From positions 62,001 through 126,000 of the forward strand of contig JACRPF010000022.1 of NCBI GenBank assembly GCA_016214035.1: 64,000 bases of DNA, given 5' to 3'. Positions within the stretch are counted from its first letter, which is position 1; each line of letters begins with the position of its first letter. Source of the stretch: Spirochaetota bacterium. Its GTDB lineage: Bacteria; Spirochaetota; Brachyspiria; Brachyspirales; JACRPF01. Under the pieces are notes generated by a model. The model saw only the letters and a program-made list of their open reading frames with translations. It had not been told where the DNA came from and made no database searches. Of the stretch, positions 50,815 to 63,748 are shown piece after piece. Position numbers and translations under genes: made by a program.

Positions 50815-51765
50815 ATGCCGCATGAAACAGTACAACGGACGGTTGCGATATTAGGCGCGAGCAGTCATATCGCCAAAGGGTTGATATATCATTTTTCGAT
50901 GACCGACACAAAATTGGTGTTATTCGCACGGGCACCCCACAAGGTGAACGATTTTCTTATATGCTCAGGTATAGAAAACAAGGATATCTGCATTGATTCG
51001 TTTGATAACATTTTGCATCATTCACTGGATGTGATCATCAACTGTGTGGGACTTGTCGATCCGGTAAAGATCAGAGACGCCGGATCGGAGCTGTTGAACA
51101 TAACCGAACATTTTGATGAATGCGCGCTGTCGTATCTCTCGGGGAAAAGCGATACGCTGTACATCAATATGTCAAGCGGTGCGGTGTTCGGAAGGGTGTT
51201 TGATAAGCCGGTAGATGAGCATACCTGCGGCATTATCGATATTAACCATATCGGGCCGAATGATTTTTATTCGCTGGCCAAGATACATGCCGAAGCGAAA
51301 CACCGGGCGTTGCCGCCAATGCATATCGTCGATATCCGGGTGTTCTCATACTTCAGCCGCTTTGCAGACCTAAACGCGCATTTTTTTCTTAATGATATTT
51401 TAAAATGCATTAAAAGCAAAAGTGATTTTTTTACCACGAGCCGCGACATGACCCGTGATTATGTGCACCCGGACGATCTTTTTGCGCTGGTGCAGTGCTG
51501 CATTGAAAAAAATCGGATCAACGATGTATTCGATGTATACAGCAGGGAATGTATAACCAAAAAAAATATTCTTGCTTATTTCAGCAGGCAATACGGACTC
51601 CGTGTTGTTACAAGAGATGATGCCGCAACGATCGATGCCGCCGGGAAGAAAGATTTTTATTATTCTATGAACCGGAAAGCAGCGGATATTGGCTATGCCC
51701 CGGCGTACAATTCGCTGGATACGATTAAGATGGAAGCCGCCGCTTTGTTGGGAACCAGCTCGTAA
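50815..51765 (+). CDS. NAD(P)-dependent sugar reductase, YerF-like
   Basis: A 316-residue extended SDR protein with an N-terminal VAILGASSHIAKGL nucleotide site, VIINCVGLVDP, and NDFYSLAKIHAEA (Tyr-x3-Lys). In known yersiniose synthesis YerF reduces the ketone of the two-carbon branch to the hydroxyethyl group; this gene occupies the equivalent position. Start at 50815 is preferred; GTG at 50800 would overlap yerE. Its end overlaps the convergent GT2 gene by 41 bases. Confidence 0.72.
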   Translation: MPHETVQRTVAILGASSHIAKGLIYHFSMTDTKLVLFARAPHKVNDFLICSGIENKDICIDSFDNILHHSLDVIINCVGLVDPVKIRDAGSELLNITEHFDECALSYLSGKSDTLYINMSSGAVFGRVFDKPVDEHTCGIIDINHIGPNDFYSLAKIHAEAKHRALPPMHIVDIRVFSYFSRFADLNAHFFLNDILKCIKSKSDFFTTSRDMTRDYVHPDDLFALVQCCIEKNRINDVFDVYSRECITKKNILAYFSRQYGLRVVTRDDAATIDAAGKKDFYYSMNRKAADIGYAPAYNSLDTIKMEAAALLGTSS

Positions 51766-52741
51766 GTCCTTTTACCACCTCGAAGAATGCAATGAACGGT
51801 AGCTTCAGTTTGTTCAGCAGCGATCGGTCGTGTTTGCCGATTATCTTCAATGCATTGATCATGGTTGCGGCATTCGCCGTGCGTATACCGGAAAGCACGG
51901 TCAGGAGACTTCGTTTTGAGGCGAAAAGAAAACTCGCTTTTTGTATCGCCCGCCACTCTTTGTCGGCGAACATAGCCTGCGTCTTTTCATTGTTCAGATA
52001 TTTTTCCGTGATCACATAGAAGGCGTCGTTGTCAAGTCCTTTGTTATGGAGCTGCACGGTATCGGATGTCGGATTGAATCGCCATTGTGAAAGCGTTTCA
52101 TGTATGTAGTAAAAATCGTATGCAAGTGCAAAGCGCATACAAATCTCAACATCGATGGCGAATTTTGCTTTTAAATCGATTCCACCGAAACGTTTGAATC
52201 CGCTGGCGCGGAACATGACGCCTGTGGGAACGCAGCACGGATATATACTCGTCAGAAAATCTTTCATGATGATGCGTTTTTCTATAAGCCCGCTTTCGTC
52301 GCGGTAATTATAGAGCACGCGCATTTTTTTCACCAGATAGAATACCGGTTGAACGGGCCTGTCGGCATCATCGATGATACCGAGCGGCGCCATTACAACA
52401 CCGACATTCGGGTATTGTTCCATGACGGCGACCATTTTTTCGAGACAATCGGCGCGGAGCAGATCATCATCCATGAGATACTTGATGTAGGTGCCCCGGG
52501 CGAGTCTACGTGCCCGTTCGATGTTTTTGAGACCACCGATGTTCTGCGAATTCCGATAATATTTAATTTTTCGGTGGCTGAGCGAGCGAACGAGTTTTTG
52601 TGACCGGTCATCGGGACTATTATCGGTGATGATGATCTCAAAATCCTGCAGCGTCTGCGCAAAACAGGAGCGCAGCGCCTTCAGCAGATATTCGGGACGA
52701 TTGTAGGTTGGGATGCAGATGGAGACGAGCGGCGTTTTCAT
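51725..52741 (-). CDS. Glycosyltransferase family 2
   Basis: A 338-residue GT-A enzyme opening VSICIPTYNRPEYLLKALRS, with TDNSPDD and the metal-binding YLMDDDLL. It would transfer a sugar during surface-glycan assembly on the cytoplasmic face. Last gene of the GT4-GT10-GT2 unit; its start overlaps the GT10 stop (ATGA). Donor and acceptor unknown. Confidence 0.92.
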   Translation of the reverse strand: MKTPLVSICIPTYNRPEYLLKALRSCFAQTLQDFEIIITDNSPDDRSQKLVRSLSHRKIKYYRNSQNIGGLKNIERARRLARGTYIKYLMDDDLLRADCLEKMVAVMEQYPNVGVVMAPLGIIDDADRPVQPVFYLVKKMRVLYNYRDESGLIEKRIIMKDFLTSIYPCCVPTGVMFRASGFKRFGGIDLKAKFAIDVEICMRFALAYDFYYIHETLSQWRFNPTSDTVQLHNKGLDNDAFYVITEKYLNNEKTQAMFADKEWRAIQKASFLFASKRSLLTVLSGIRTANAATMINALKIIGKHDRSLLNKLKLPFIAFFEVVKGLTSWFPTKRRLPS

Positions 52742-53769
52742 GAGAAGAGCTCCCGGGTAAGCAGCTCAGTGAATCCCTCGGCGCTGTACGGATAGACTGC
52801 CGTGCTCTTGAGGACATTCCGCATGGCATCGAGATATCGCTGATGCTCCCCTGCGCTCATACCGGCAAGATATCGATACAGTTCATCATAATCGGCGAAT
52901 CGACGTTTATCGATGAAACTTGCGGCGGGAAATATCGAAGCGATATCAGGCGCACCGAGATATACCGGTATGCTTCCCGCCATCATGCAGTCGACGATTT
53001 TCTCGGTGATATATCCGGGTTCTATTGCATTTTCGTAGCAGATAGAGAATTTATACCGTGCAAGCGTGTCGCGTTTGACACGAAGCGGACCACGATACGA
53101 CGGGAAACGATTTACGCGCGGCAGAAACGGCGCCTGCCGGTACAGAATGTTCAGTCCCATATTGAGCGGATAGAGATGCCCCGCAAAATAAAAGCGGTCC
53201 CAGCCGATACCATACAGGTCGAATTGCTCGGGATGATGACATTCGAACCATCTGAGCGCACGTATGCGTTCGGAATACAGCTCGTTCGGATGTCCGTGGT
53301 ATTTATTGCTGGCAATAAGCGTGCAGAATCTGTCTTTGCATGACGGATCAAAGCGCGATGGGTCACATATTATCCTGCTGGAGAAGTTCATGGGAAAATA
53401 TTTTTTTCGGTCGATGATGTCAGTACGCCAGGTGAATACTTTCTTAAAATACCGGTGATTGTTTCTGTTGTAATTGTCGGAACGGAGCATCTCGCATTCG
53501 AATGCGGCGAGATACATCTCGGGATGTTTCATGGCGATCAATTTTCTGAACAGGGGGTTCAGCTTTGTGGGATAATCAAAAAACACGATGCGGTCGAATT
53601 TCTCAAGCGTATCGGTGTCGATGGTTGCAACACGATGACCGTTTTCTGTCAGGGTGCGGCCAAGATGTACCACAGGATACAAGATGTCGTCTCCGAGCGC
53701 CGCTGATGCGCTGGTGAACATGCGATTGTTGTTGTACACATTGTAGAAGTTGTAAAACCCGATGTACAT
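52738..53769 (-). CDS. Glycosyltransferase family 10 (fucosyltransferase-like)
   Basis: A 343-residue protein with the GT10 signature YKFSICYENAIEPGYITEKI followed by VDCMMAGSIPVYLGAPDI (about residues 235-275). GT10 enzymes are alpha-1,3/1,4-fucosyltransferases using GDP-fucose. No GDP-fucose genes lie in the window, so the donor could be another 6-deoxy sugar. It starts one base after the GT4 stop. Confidence 0.9.
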   Translation of the reverse strand: MYIGFYNFYNVYNNNRMFTSASAALGDDILYPVVHLGRTLTENGHRVATIDTDTLEKFDRIVFFDYPTKLNPLFRKLIAMKHPEMYLAAFECEMLRSDNYNRNNHRYFKKVFTWRTDIIDRKKYFPMNFSSRIICDPSRFDPSCKDRFCTLIASNKYHGHPNELYSERIRALRWFECHHPEQFDLYGIGWDRFYFAGHLYPLNMGLNILYRQAPFLPRVNRFPSYRGPLRVKRDTLARYKFSICYENAIEPGYITEKIVDCMMAGSIPVYLGAPDIASIFPAASFIDKRRFADYDELYRYLAGMSAGEHQRYLDAMRNVLKSTAVYPYSAEGFTELLTRELFS

Positions 53770-53770
53770 A

Positions 53771-54937
53771 TTATCTTTGTTCCTGCTGCATCGTCACGGA
53801 AAGCGCTTCCGTGAAAATATGGTTCCAGTCATACGATCTTGCCATCTGGAATGCGTTTGTTCGGTACAGCTGAATTCTGTCGGGTTGGCTCAGATATGTC
53901 CGTATATTCTTTACCACAATGTCGAGATCGAACGGAACGATGAAGCCGGCCTGCTGTGCGCTGATCTTCTGTGCGATCGGCGCACAATCGGTCATGATGA
54001 CCGGTACGCCGCAGCCGAGATACGTTTTTACTTTACCGGGGTCGGTGTTCCCGATAAATGGATGTGCCGGATCGTACAGCGCCATTCCCAGTACGGCGTG
54101 TGCAACGATCTGTTCCATCGCATGTGTGTCTGCGATGAATCCGGCGAATTCAATATGCGCTGACAGTTCATGAAGACGAACATATTCACGTATGGACGCT
54201 TCGTCAGCATCGCCCTTTCCGATTATCAGCAGTTTGATGTTCTTGAACTCAGATCGCAATGCCTCAACAGCAGTGATTGCAAGCATAATGCCTTGGAATT
54301 TATGTATGAAACCCATGTACACGAGTTCACAGTCGTGCACACTGCTGCGGGGAAGAAAATTTTCCTGCCTGACAAAAATGCCGTGCGGTGTGACCATCTG
54401 ATGCGGAAACGACCTCTGCCACATGCGTTCCCGCTCACGGATCATCGCGGGCGCATAGTTCCAGGTGCACGAGGCATATTGTGCGCACCATTTTTCGATC
54501 GTGTGATACAGTTTATTCAGCAACGGGTTTCTAAATCGCTTCGGGATGAAGTCGATGACGTAGTATATCACCGTGTCAACTTTGCCTATCCTTTTAAGTA
54601 TCAGGCCGATGAATGCGTTGAGATTGCCCGTGCCGACGAACAGATCGATTTTACCCCGTATCTTTGCCAGTGACCATACGAAGGTTAGTAGCGAGTCCTT
54701 GATATACGACAGTACTTCGGGGAGTTTTCCGGTGGATGCTTCAAATGATCTTGATTCCGTTCCTTGTCTGTAGATCCGAGCATATGAATTCTTTATCGCA
54801 TTGGCGGCGACAGACATGTTGGGATGGCCGATGAAAAGAATCTCTTCTGTTTTTTCACCGCGCAGATAATCGCGAAGTGCGTGCGGCGGTCCTGCTACGA
54901 TATCATGGCATACGATGATTGCTTTTTTTATGGTCAT
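53771..54937 (-). CDS. Glycosyltransferase family 4
   Basis: A 388-residue GT-B protein. The C-terminal half has MGFIHKFQGIMLAI, LLIIGKGDADEASI, HIEFAGFI and PGKVKTYLGCGVPVI, typical of GT4 donor-binding domains. It is the first intact gene after the diverged promoter copy at 55116-55143, which may drive it. Sugar specificity unknown. Confidence 0.9.
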   Translation of the reverse strand: MTIKKAIIVCHDIVAGPPHALRDYLRGEKTEEILFIGHPNMSVAANAIKNSYARIYRQGTESRSFEASTGKLPEVLSYIKDSLLTFVWSLAKIRGKIDLFVGTGNLNAFIGLILKRIGKVDTVIYYVIDFIPKRFRNPLLNKLYHTIEKWCAQYASCTWNYAPAMIRERERMWQRSFPHQMVTPHGIFVRQENFLPRSSVHDCELVYMGFIHKFQGIMLAITAVEALRSEFKNIKLLIIGKGDADEASIREYVRLHELSAHIEFAGFIADTHAMEQIVAHAVLGMALYDPAHPFIGNTDPGKVKTYLGCGVPVIMTDCAPIAQKISAQQAGFIVPFDLDIVVKNIRTYLSQPDRIQLYRTNAFQMARSYDWNHIFTEALSVTMQQEQR

Positions 54938-54948
54938 TCGGATTTTCT

Positions 54949-55109
54949 CTACGACACCGGGGCAATATCTTTCACAAACAGCTCTTTATGTTCCAAAAGG
55001 TCAATGACACTACTGCAATCCGGCCGGTATTCTGCGTTGTTTCAAATACAGTATCTGTGACAACCATGCCGGGCTTCGGTTTATCGACGGATGTTACGAT
55101 TTCTGCCAT
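54949..55109 (-). pseudogene. Truncated, diverged copy of the 5' end of the gene at 63755
   Basis: From ATG at 55109 a 45-codon frame (to 54972) begins MAEIVTSVDKPKPGMVVTDT, matching 15 of 22 residues of MAEVSTPVDKLKTGMVVSDT at 63755. The match extends upstream through the promoter. After about 26 codons similarity ends; a second open stretch in another frame (AEYRPDCSSVIDLLEHKELF and on to a stop at 54949) looks codon-like but is unrelated to the paralogue. It is read as a broken remnant, though a short leader peptide cannot be excluded. Confidence 0.6.
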
Positions 55110-55115
55110 TTATTG

Positions 55116-55143
55116 ATTATACAGGAAGAGTAATGATTTTCAA
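55116..55143 (-). promoter_or_regulatory. Promoter copy upstream of the glycosyltransferase genes
   Basis: TTGAAA (55138-55143) and TATAAT (55116-55121) on the minus strand, 16 bases apart, then 6 bases to the ATG at 55109. The box-to-box sequence is shared with the promoter at 63721-63748. Confidence 0.65.
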
Positions 55144-55182
55144 TAGCAGATTTCTTACGCTCGTTACGCTACTAAAATCATT
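55132..55182. repeat. 9-bp inverted repeat upstream of the remnant
   Basis: AATGATTTT (55132-55140) and AAAATCATT (55174-55182) are perfect reverse complements around 33 bases that include a direct repeat TTACGCT. Confidence 0.5.
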
Positions 55183-55215
55183 GGTTACACAGTGGATATT
55201 ATAATATCACGGGGC

Positions 55216-55243
55216 TTGCAAAATTAATACTTTAAAATACAGT
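55216..55243 (+). promoter_or_regulatory. Possible promoter of the secreted protein at 55272
   Basis: TTGCAA (55216-55221) and TACAGT (55238-55243), 16 bases apart; GAGGTG then precedes the ATG. Confidence 0.45.
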
Positions 55244-55271
55244 ATGCTATCTGAGCTTCTTGAGGTGCACT

Positions 55272-55643
55272 ATGAAAAAGCTGATAACCCTTTCGACATT
55301 CCTGATCGTATCCGCCGCCGCGTTTGCTGCAATCCCGACCAACGGATCCTTCTATTTCACGGTAAGCAACCGGATTTTCTTTTCAAACGCCAAAGCGCAG
55401 TTGATTCAGACCACCAACAATGATTCGTTCTGGGTTGAAACCGCTGTGTATCATCAGATGCGTCCGCTGCGCCGCTATCGTCTGAACATATTCAAATATA
55501 TCGTTTCCAACAACGGAACGCAGTATCCGCTGCTGCTCACTGAGATGGACGATGTGATGGAGATTACGAACGGCTCGATGACCAATTCACATATCCGCCG
55601 CGCTATGCCCCTGACAACGCCGCGAAACACCCCGAGAAAATAA
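55272..55643 (+). CDS. Small secreted protein of unknown function
   Basis: A 123-residue protein with a clear signal peptide (MKKLITLSTFLIVSAAAFAA) and a mature part with aromatic-rich strands and a basic, Thr/Pro-rich tail. No family recognised. GAGGTG stands 4 bases before the ATG at 55272. It is followed by the FecR-like gene, which has its own promoter. Confidence 0.7.
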   Translation: MKKLITLSTFLIVSAAAFAAIPTNGSFYFTVSNRIFFSNAKAQLIQTTNNDSFWVETAVYHQMRPLRRYRLNIFKYIVSNNGTQYPLLLTEMDDVMEITNGSMTNSHIRRAMPLTTPRNTPRK

Positions 55644-55664
55644 CATTCCGATCCGTTATTTGAG

Positions 55665-55693
55665 TTGCGCGATATCCCGCGCTATGGTATCAT
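55665..55693 (+). promoter_or_regulatory. Possible promoter of the FecR-like gene
   Basis: TTGCGC (55665-55670) and TATCAT (55688-55693), 17 bases apart. The -10 box lies within CGCTATG-GTAT-CATAGCG, a 7-bp palindrome that could be an operator. Confidence 0.4.
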
Positions 55694-55727
55694 AGCGTCT
55701 ATCCGTTCCGTACAGCGGGAGTAATCC

Positions 55728-57398
55728 ATGCGTCTTGTAACAATCGTTTTTACGACATTCTGTATCGTGTGCACATGTGCTATGCCGTACGCGGTCACCG
55801 TGTTTCCCGCCAACGGGACGGTGATGGTGCTCCGCGGCGGTGCGGCAGGCCGGTGGACGCCGGTATTGTTTTCCACCGTGATCGACGCGTCAGACGCGGT
55901 ACGCACCGCGCCGGACGGCGGAGCATGGCTGGTAACGCCCGGCAACGATTATATACTCCTCGGCAACAACGCCACTGCGCAGCTGAGTTCGGTGAGCGAT
56001 ACAGCAAAACCGATGATGTCATCATTGCTGCTCCGTCGCGGCAAAGCGTATGCTGCGGTTAAGAACAGCGGCCGTTTTGTATGGGAACTGGTCACCCCCA
56101 CGCTGCGTGTCCGTGTCAACAATGGACGCGCGCTTGTTCAGGCGGATGACGAATCACGCATGCTTGCGGAAAGCAACACGATTGCGGAGATTATTGTTTC
56201 CGCGCCGGGAAAGGATAATGAATCAATGCGCCTGTCGTCGGGCAAGATGATATTCGGCAAGCAGGATGGAAGCCTGAGCGCCGAAATCGCCGCCCGCGGA
56301 GCGGATGCGCTTTTTGCCGAAGTGCGCGCCGCCGAGCAGTGGATGTTCCGCCCCGTTCCATCGCTAGCCGTGACCGTACCGCAGCTTACAACACGCGTGC
56401 CGCGCTCCTCCGGCAGATTTGAGCTTCGCGGTCTTTCCGATCCGTTCGCGGTCATCACCGTCAATAATGATGCAATTGAGATCGGGCGTGTCAGCGCAAA
56501 TTCGAACGGAGAGTTTTCACTTCACATACCGATACAGCCGAAACAACAGTGTGATCTTCAGGTCACCGCATACACGATACGCGGGGTCGCAACGCTCCGG
56601 CATCAGGTGCGCTGCATGCCGGAGGCGGGACTTGATATCATCGCGCCGCGCGAAGGCGATGTTTTTGCGTCCAAAGGCATTACCTTCAGCGGAATAACGC
56701 TGCCGGGGTCGGCCGTTTCTGTTCAGGGGTATGATATTCGTGTCGCTTCGAACGGTATGTTCGGTCCGGCAGAGATACAGTTCAGAAATGATGGCGTCAT
56801 CCGAGCAAACGTACACTGCACCGGTTCAAACGGTGTCGTCACCAACCGCATCCGTACGTTCACCATCGACACCTCGCTGCCCGCGCTCGAATGGTTTACA
56901 GTGGAAGGACTTCGTAACGGTACCGCGCTTTCACCCGATGTAACGGTGCGTCTGGGTACGAAGAATTCGGTTTACGCATCGATTAACGGTTTTCCGCTCA
57001 CACGCACCGGGAAAAATACATTTGAAGGTGTCGCGTGTGTATTTGCCGACGGCGCGCAGACGTTTGTCATCGAGCTCATGACCGCCGCGGGGAAAAAATT
57101 CCGGGACGCACGGACAATCATATTCGACACCGAGTCGCCGTATCTGACGGTGAAAGAACCTATTGAACTCCCGTCGCTCAGCGGCGTGACGAAACGCGGG
57201 GCTTTCGTGACCGTACGGGTGAACGACGCTATCGTCATCGACCGTTCAGAATCCGCGGGTTTTTTCTCCTTCGACCTTTCAAAAAAACTAGCGCCGTATA
57301 AAGGGCACAATGTGAAGATAACCGTTTCGTGCGAAGACAGATACGGACGCAAGGGAATTCCGTTCACCGTGACGCGCTATTTCGATCTGTCGCATTAG
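55728..57398 (+). CDS. Secreted FecR-like protein with Ig-like repeats
   Basis: A 556-residue exported protein with an N-terminal signal sequence (about residues 1-22). Residues 25-150 resemble the periplasmic FecR domain (a GDGVRTAPDGGAWL-like region and LRRGKAYAAV). From about residue 220 there are several Ig-like/Big beta domains with repeated FTIDTSLP and IIFDTESPYL elements. It may be a cell-surface or periplasmic scaffold. No FecI sigma partner is nearby. GGGAG precedes the ATG. Confidence 0.75.
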   Translation: MRLVTIVFTTFCIVCTCAMPYAVTVFPANGTVMVLRGGAAGRWTPVLFSTVIDASDAVRTAPDGGAWLVTPGNDYILLGNNATAQLSSVSDTAKPMMSSLLLRRGKAYAAVKNSGRFVWELVTPTLRVRVNNGRALVQADDESRMLAESNTIAEIIVSAPGKDNESMRLSSGKMIFGKQDGSLSAEIAARGADALFAEVRAAEQWMFRPVPSLAVTVPQLTTRVPRSSGRFELRGLSDPFAVITVNNDAIEIGRVSANSNGEFSLHIPIQPKQQCDLQVTAYTIRGVATLRHQVRCMPEAGLDIIAPREGDVFASKGITFSGITLPGSAVSVQGYDIRVASNGMFGPAEIQFRNDGVIRANVHCTGSNGVVTNRIRTFTIDTSLPALEWFTVEGLRNGTALSPDVTVRLGTKNSVYASINGFPLTRTGKNTFEGVACVFADGAQTFVIELMTAAGKKFRDARTIIFDTESPYLTVKEPIELPSLSGVTKRGAFVTVRVNDAIVIDRSESAGFFSFDLSKKLAPYKGHNVKITVSCEDRYGRKGIPFTVTRYFDLSH

Positions 57399-57426: not shown

Positions 57427-58035
57427 ATGATCGGCATCATTAATTATAAAGCAGGCAATGCGCCGAGCGTGCAGAATGCATTGCAGCATCTCGGCGTTCC
57501 ATGCTGTTTCGTATCGTCACCGGATGATTTGCGAACAGCCGATGGTATTATATTGCCGGGTGTCGGTTCCGCGGAGGCCACCATGCGGTCGCTCCGTGAG
57601 CTGTCGCTCATCGATGCGCTGAACGAGCAGGTTCGCGTCCGTCATGTGCCGTTTCTCGGTATTTGCGTAGGTCTTCAGATTCTTTTCGAGCACAGCGAGG
57701 AGGGTGATACCGATTGTCTCGGCTGGCTCAAAGGCGGGGTTTTAAAATTCTCGGATCCATCGCTCCGTGTTCCGCATATCGGCTGGAACGAGGTGACATT
57801 CTCGACGGCATCGCCATTGACAGCCTCGTTTCCGGGACATCCGTATTTTTATTTTGTGAATTCGTATTACGCCGTACCGGAAGATAACGCGGTGCTGCTC
57901 GGGCGGGCGGATTACGGTGCGCCGTTCTGCGCCGCCGTTCAAGAAGATAATATCTACGCGACCCAATTTCATGCGGAAAAAAGCGGGCAGGTAGGGCTTA
58001 TGTTGTTGAGCAATTTCGCCGCTCTATGCGGATGA
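57427..58035 (+). CDS. hisH: HisH-type glutamine amidotransferase
   Basis: A 202-residue class I glutaminase of the HisH family: MIGIINYKAGNAPSVQNAL, the catalytic Cys in GICVGLQILF (near residue 80) and QFHAEKSG with the His and Glu (near residue 181). HisH releases ammonia that is tunnelled into HisF. No other histidine genes are in the window; in several bacteria extra HisH/HisF pairs serve modification of surface sugars. It lies 15 bases before the HisF-like gene. Confidence 0.88.
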   Translation: MIGIINYKAGNAPSVQNALQHLGVPCCFVSSPDDLRTADGIILPGVGSAEATMRSLRELSLIDALNEQVRVRHVPFLGICVGLQILFEHSEEGDTDCLGWLKGGVLKFSDPSLRVPHIGWNEVTFSTASPLTASFPGHPYFYFVNSYYAVPEDNAVLLGRADYGAPFCAAVQEDNIYATQFHAEKSGQVGLMLLSNFAALCG

Positions 58036-58050
58036 TGGGGATGTGACAAC

Positions 58051-58857
58051 GTGCTCAGCAAACGATTGATCGCCTGTTTCGATATCGCCAAAGGCATGGT
58101 GACCAAGGCCCGTCAATTTCAGGATAATATCGCCATCGAACCGGCCGCATCAATGGCAATACGCATGTATGACGCGGGTATCGACGAGATAGTTTTCTAC
58201 GATATCACTGCAAGTTCGGATAAGCGGAAGATCGATATCGATGCGGTTAGGGCGGTCGCAGCCGTCGTATTTGTGCCGTTCACCGTTGGCGGCGGCATCA
58301 GACATCTTGACGACATGTATGACGTTCTCAAAGCCGGTGCGGAGAAGATCAGCATCGATTCGATGGCGGTGCGTAATCCCTCGATAATACGTGACGGCGC
58401 CGCGGCATTCGGGAATCAATGCATCGTGGTGAGCACACAGGTGAAAAAGACCGGTGTACGAAAAGAGATCCCGAGCGGGTATGAGGTAGCCATCGACGGC
58501 GCGCGGGTGATGACCGGTCTCGATGCCGTACAGTGGGCGGTTAAGGCTGCGGATCTCGGCGCCGGTGAGATTGTGGTGAACAGCATCGATAATGACGGCA
58601 TGCATAGCGGATACGACATTGATATCACACGGCGCATCGCCGATAGCGTTCATGTGCCGGTCATCGCTTCCGGGGGTGCCGGAAATCCGGAACATGTCGC
58701 CGATGTTTTTACCAAAACCGGAGCGTCAGCGGCTATCATTAGCTCACTGCTGTATTCCCCGCGTCTTCAGAAAAATTTTTCGGTTCATGAAGTAAAAACA
58801 TATCTGCAAAGCCGGTCGATACACGTGCGTCCGCCGGCAGAATCATTCAATCTGTAA
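58051..58857 (+). CDS. HisF-family protein with altered catalytic site
   Basis: A 268-residue TIM-barrel protein aligning end to end with HisF. Asp11 in LIACFDIAKG, FYDITAS, FTVGGGI, NSIDNDGMHSGYD and IASGGAG are kept. The second catalytic Asp (Asp130 of the Thermotoga maritima enzyme) is Gln130 here (VVSTQVKK), and Asn103 is Asp. Imidazole glycerol phosphate synthesis is therefore doubtful; ammonia delivery to another substrate is possible. The start is GTG with GGGG upstream. Confidence 0.82.
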   Translation: MLSKRLIACFDIAKGMVTKARQFQDNIAIEPAASMAIRMYDAGIDEIVFYDITASSDKRKIDIDAVRAVAAVVFVPFTVGGGIRHLDDMYDVLKAGAEKISIDSMAVRNPSIIRDGAAAFGNQCIVVSTQVKKTGVRKEIPSGYEVAIDGARVMTGLDAVQWAVKAADLGAGEIVVNSIDNDGMHSGYDIDITRRIADSVHVPVIASGGAGNPEHVADVFTKTGASAAIISSLLYSPRLQKNFSVHEVKTYLQSRSIHVRPPAESFNL

Positions 58858-63720: not shown

Positions 63721-63748
63721 TTGAAAATCAGCCCTCTTCCTGTATACT
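63721..63748 (+). promoter_or_regulatory. Predicted leaderless promoter of the gene at 63755
   Basis: TTGAAA (63721-63726) and TATACT (63743-63748), 16 bases apart, then 6 bases to the ATG. The sequence is shared with 55116-55143. Confidence 0.6.

Follow-up and report, generated by a model that had tools for sequence, protein, structure and literature searches.

A probable HD-GYP pseudogene and its surviving promoter upstream of a glycosyltransferase cassette in a spirochaete

Introduction

Two stretches of spirochaete DNA that lie in inverted orientation carry closely similar promoters and gene starts. One of them leads into an intact gene for a predicted HD-GYP protein, and the other stands in front of a GT4-GT10-GT2 glycosyltransferase cassette. 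The question raised by this locus is how the second promoter came to be there. A sequence-only reading had proposed that a regulatory gene's control region was captured to drive glycan genes. Here, we follow up that proposal in the window, a stretch of 64,000 nucleotides (positions 62001-126000 of the 295-kb contig C19, genome G000), and in related genomes. The features under discussion are collected in Table 1.

Table 1. Features of the locus, with window coordinates
Feature	Position	Strand	Basis or remarks
Promoter of minus-strand copy, TTGAAA-16-TATAAT; predicted start ~55109 (A of ATG, leaderless type)	55116..55143	-	11/12 consensus
5' remnant of HD-GYP gene, 45-codon open frame (MAEIVTSVDKPKPGMVVTDTVF...SCL, then stop)	54972..55109	-	Likeness to intact gene
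3' remnant in another frame (VIDLLEHKELFVKDIAPVS, then stop TAG 54951-54949)	54949..55008	-	DNA match, C-terminal profile
GT4 glycosyltransferase	53771..54937	-	Pfam Glyco_trans_1_4; 59% to G064 homologue
GT10 (fucosyltransferase-family)	52738..53769	-	Pfam PF00852; 58% to G064
GT2 glycosyltransferase	51725..52741	-	Pfam PF00535; 58% to G064
Promoter of intact gene, TTGAAA-16-TATACT, 6 bases before ATG	63721..63748	+	Same layout in G001
Intact HD-GYP gene, 379 aa	63755-64894, past window end (64000)	+	Pfam HD_5, HD, DUF3391; HHE..NGKGYP

Results

The minus strand read from 55143 and the plus strand read from 63721 agree at 73 of 100 bases without a gap, and 26 of the first 30 bases are the same. 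Within the window, the runner-up 100-mer reaches 47 matches (mean 25, sd 4.5) and the runner-up 30-mer 19, and the two stretches are therefore homologous. The starts of the two proteins share 15 of 22 residues. These counts, as well as the inverted arrangement, had been put forward in the sequence-only reading, and all of them were returned unchanged when recomputed. A blastn search of the genome (5.21 Mb, 22 contigs) gave two matches, the intact gene (E 6e-101) and the copy (E 4.5e-14, 78% over 88 bp), and no third copy across the 5.21 Mb, the following match having an E value of 1.7. Likewise, the 30-base promoter motif had no further occurrence in the other loci examined, and the genome-wide search for additional copies that the sequence-only reading had proposed yielded just these two.

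The plus-strand gene is predicted from its domains to be an HD-GYP gene, of the type known as c-di-GMP phosphodiesterases. Its product matches HD_5 (E 2.2e-29) and HD (E 8e-20), with a weak DUF3391-like domain at the N terminus, and the HHE..NGKGYP motif is present in the translation. It thus carries the HD and GYP motifs of the HD-GYP phosphodiesterases (HD_5, PF13487) together with a DUF3391-like N-domain. A single-protein scan of contigs gave no relatives, and an alignment-based scan gave relatives in Brachyspira. Orthologs are present in G001, the sole same-family genome compared (61%), and in Brachyspira species (36-39%), a kinship that suggests a Brachyspirales-type host outside Brachyspira. 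Our literature search found no paper joining HD-GYP with Brachyspira. In G001, the promoter TTGTAA-16-TATACT is followed after 7 bases by ATGGCTGAA, and the C-terminus of the ortholog is VMDLAERKDIFIKEIVPTRPA, that of the intact gene being IINLSEQKELFIKDVV. Comparing the synteny of the block in relatives had been suggested as a further check; G001, again the sole same-family genome compared, shares none, either at the HD-GYP gene or at the FecR-like neighbour.

According to the sequence-only reading, the minus-strand copy breaks down after about 26 codons. Similarity of the 5' remnant to the intact gene does stop near codon 26-30, but what comes next is that gene's 3' end, and the coordinate 54949 at which the earlier reading ended is the end of the TAG that closes it. 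This 3' remnant partly overlaps the 45-codon frame. It matches the intact 3' end at 25 of 31 bases, its protein raw score of 52 lies above the maximum of 2000 shuffles (45), and its end, IDLLEHKELFVKDIAPVS, is also similar to the G001 end, MDLAERKDIFIKEIVPTRPA. A one-jump alignment leaves about 986 bases absent between the 5' and 3' parts. In addition, a C-terminal profile built from the last 75 residues of homologues, with the local gene excluded, was run against the whole 295-kb contig in six-frame translation (10,949 segments). The intact gene ranked first (E 4e-26) and the minus-strand segment 55041-54952 second (E 0.025), followed by a third segment at E 1.4. Because the second-ranked segment directly adjoins the 5' remnant, a chance match is very unlikely; we estimate the probability of its falling by accident within the roughly 100 bases beside that remnant to be of the order of 1e-5.

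The two ends of the gene lie in order, and the whole gene was therefore once present, its middle having since been lost. On this evidence the minus-strand copy is best described as an HD-GYP pseudogene, that is, the two ends of a duplicate that has lost its middle and whose frame is shifted. The ordered ends, absent middle, and broken frame are those of a duplicated pseudogene with an internal deletion. Since the HD_5/HD/GYP region falls within the absent ~1 kb, the remnant keeps the two ends of an HD-GYP phosphodiesterase gene (HD_5, PF13487) without the whole catalytic domain and is not itself counted as a member of the family. Differences between the 5' remnant and the intact gene number 6, 4, and 11 at the first, second, and third codon positions, the third being the most changed.

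The promoter of the dead copy is the sole one with an 11/12 match to consensus on the minus strand within 54600-55800, and it is situated 180 bases upstream of the cassette. A weaker site (9/12) occurs at 54676-54648, inside GT4. Between 55116 and 54937, we found neither a terminator nor a second promoter of such quality, and an Rfam search of the window from 40 to 64 kb gave no match to a riboswitch-type RNA element in the leader. The impression that the promoter is better kept than the coding part was not borne out, as 26/30 against 51/72 is not a significant difference (Fisher p 0.13), and counting the promoter up to the ATG gives 26/34 against 51/72 (p 0.64). Against its ortholog in G001, the intact gene agrees at 18 of 30 promoter bases and 51 of 72 coding bases; for the intact gene and the pseudogene the values are 26/30 and, at the same coding distance, 51/72. 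Because the promoters are more alike (26/30 versus 18/30) at equal coding distance, the duplication may be later than the genus split, although the numbers are small.

Promoter statistics were drawn from 492 long ORFs in stretches of 695 kb (contig C19 and the first 400 kb of contig C1; L058-L072 and L140-L159). TATAAT-like boxes located 12-14 bases before the ATG number 26, compared with 6-9 in adjacent bins, and those that also have a -35 box number 15, compared with 2-3. The usual -35 box is TTGACN, 16-17 bases upstream of the TATAAT-like (TATAMT) box. Of the 16 genes in which a boxed site lies 11-14 bases ahead of the ATG, none has a Shine-Dalgarno match, in comparison with 160 of the 476 others. 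The peak of boxes 12-14 bases before the ATG and the lack of Shine-Dalgarno matches show that leaderless-type sigma-70 promoters form a regular class here, and suggest that many genes of this genome are leaderless. The promoter of the dead copy is, by its layout, assigned to this general class. In Leptospira interrogans, likewise a spirochaete, leaderless transcripts are common, and many transcripts begin no more than 10 bases from the start codon (PMC5243855); there they were mapped by RNA sequencing, whereas here leaderless starts are deduced from promoter position.

The GT4, GT10, and GT2 genes that the sequence-only reading had placed after the copy are indeed found there, the ATG of GT4 lying 11 bases past the stop of the remnant. 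The three genes overlap or abut, forming one unit. A spirochaete of another family (G064) carries all three genes in this order at 58-59% identity (window 51725-54937; L077:7222-10474), with a B12-type radical SAM gene and no HD-GYP gene upstream. The cassette is absent from the same-family genome G001, where the best GT4 is 34% identical, and of 393 spirochaete genomes only 5 contain a GT10 match at E<=1e-50. Moreover, no HD-GYP gene lies near GT10 in G064 or in the four other GT10 neighbourhoods viewed. The patchy distribution, the absence from G001, and the lack of an HD-GYP gene beside GT10 elsewhere indicate that the cassette probably arrived by lateral transfer, separately from the HD-GYP gene. 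It thus resembles a horizontally acquired glycosyltransferase cassette in being patchy and in having its closest relative outside the family, one same-family genome having been compared. The horizontally acquired glycosyltransferase operons of Salmonella, as outlined in PMC3688519, are likewise small sporadic units that change surface glycans, so far as the gene types here suggest such a role; the present families, GT4-GT10-GT2, differ from the Salmonella ones.

Elsewhere, GT10 adjoins CDP-sugar genes (L137, L138), whose homologues are present in the window at 45.7-47.7 kb. At 57427-58857, a HisH and HisF-like pair lies next to FecR-like and radical SAM genes and may serve glycan amidation instead of histidine synthesis.

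Discussion

We hold with high confidence that an HD-GYP duplicate with an internal deletion stands at this site, and that its promoter was left by gene death and passively inherited in front of an acquired cassette. A full-length HD-GYP duplicate once began at 55109 on the minus strand, under its own sigma-70 promoter of the leaderless type. As the sequence shows, this duplicate lost about 1 kb of its middle and gained a frameshift; what survives is the promoter, together with about 26-30 codons from the start of the gene and about 17-19 from its end. A GT4-GT10-GT2 cassette, patchy in its observed distribution, lies directly downstream; its lateral arrival, the direction of transfer, and the order of events are inferred. 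The surviving promoter, with no terminator found between it and GT4, most likely now transcribes the cassette, a step that we rate by itself as somewhat more likely than not, and the transcript would be headed by the 45-codon remnant frame or by plain leader RNA. Against the model, the 3' match is short, no genome was found with an intact HD-GYP gene at the 55109 site, G001 shares no synteny at the HD-GYP gene or the FecR-like neighbour, and the weaker site inside GT4 offers a second possible start for the cassette.

The idea that duplication was confined to the promoter and gene start, with unrelated bases following, draws on the 5' part being by far the stronger match. It does not account for the gene's own C-terminus coming next in order, with its stop 11 bases before GT4, at a contig-wide profile E value of 0.025 and in a place that chance would very rarely choose, and we judge this reading very unlikely. 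Another possibility, which the sequence-only reading had itself raised, is that the likeness arose by chance from a promoter consensus general to the species. The boxes are indeed of a general type, TTGACN-16/17-TATAMT about 12 bases before the ATG being a genuine class in this genome. Taken over all 30 bases, however, the two promoters are true homologous copies; the likeness extends to the spacer and the coding bases, well beyond the runner-up, the genome holds no further copy, and the coding match refutes convergence, to which we assign a negligible probability. Two other candidates were rejected: insertion of the cassette within the HD-GYP gene, as both gene ends are on one side of the cassette, and block duplication of an HD-GYP gene with its downstream glycosyltransferase gene, as the gene next to the intact HD-GYP gene is an unrelated 278-aa GT2 rather than GT4.

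The 45-codon frame might instead encode a short protein or leader peptide that has a function and is kept by selection, for example one coupling translation to GT4. The frame is still open, its start and promoter are intact, and the codon-position differences look like those of past or present constraint. The third-position bias, though, fits the earlier, complete state of the gene, the 45-codon frame enters the 3' remnant out of frame, and no relative with a 45-codon frame was found, which makes a leader peptide highly improbable. Gene conversion or recombination between the inverted copies, which would supplement the pseudogene reading and not replace it, could keep the promoters alike and would suit the excess of promoter over coding similarity between the copies relative to the intact-G001 pair. 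The identity has no sharp boundary, the numbers are too small, and the likeness is explained equally well if the duplication followed the genus split; we consider conversion improbable.

The pseudogene reading corrects the idea of a copied control region. The promoter seems to have been inherited passively through gene death, possibly by a natural promoter-capture deletion, rather than by duplication of a control region. To say that a regulatory gene's control region was captured is at most right in effect, not in origin: homology and the regulatory-type (HD-GYP) template hold, but the control region was not copied alone, as both gene ends are present. Likewise, this is the sole good promoter found before the glycosyltransferase genes, in keeping with its driving them, but capture was passive at best, through a cassette lying beside a dying gene or a deletion bringing the promoter closer.

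In a promoter-capture deletion, loss of upstream DNA moves a gene closer to a promoter that belongs to another gene, and its expression can rise as a result (eLife 2017;6:e25100, PMC5526668). The distance from promoter to gene is shortened here as well, with about 986 bases fewer before GT4 than in the intact gene. Those deletions were lab-selected and directly seen, whereas here any selection, and transcription from the promoter, are putative; moreover, read-through from the promoter could here have predated the deletion. The data fit a passive leftover just as well, and any benefit from the deletion is hypothetical. It is possible, though doubtful, that the locus is a fossil promoter-capture deletion, in which loss of the HD-GYP body put a lateral surface-glycan cassette under the promoter of a c-di-GMP gene, paralleling the intact copy 8.6 kb away. 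If so, the cassette would now be under control formerly used for a c-di-GMP enzyme. The locus, in a poorly studied Brachyspirales-type spirochaete, illustrates a concrete route by which horizontally acquired genes lying behind a duplicate can gain a native promoter, the body of the duplicate being lost while its promoter stays. Apart from this, it represents mostly ordinary gene decay beside an acquired operon.

Both genera retain a further full-length paralog of the HD-GYP gene (44%;G000:C15:41954-43099, L056; G001:C143, L057), and a leaderless-type promoter is not obvious in the start region of the former. In one Brachyspira-group genome (G022:C1:1925781-1926897), the HD-GYP gene is in two pieces with an internal TAA, and the gene therefore seems to have been lost elsewhere too. 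The 278-aa GT2 gene begins 26 bases after the intact HD-GYP gene (L021:13756-15758, window 63755 to 65757), such that both HD-GYP copies precede glycosyltransferase genes, but of different families.
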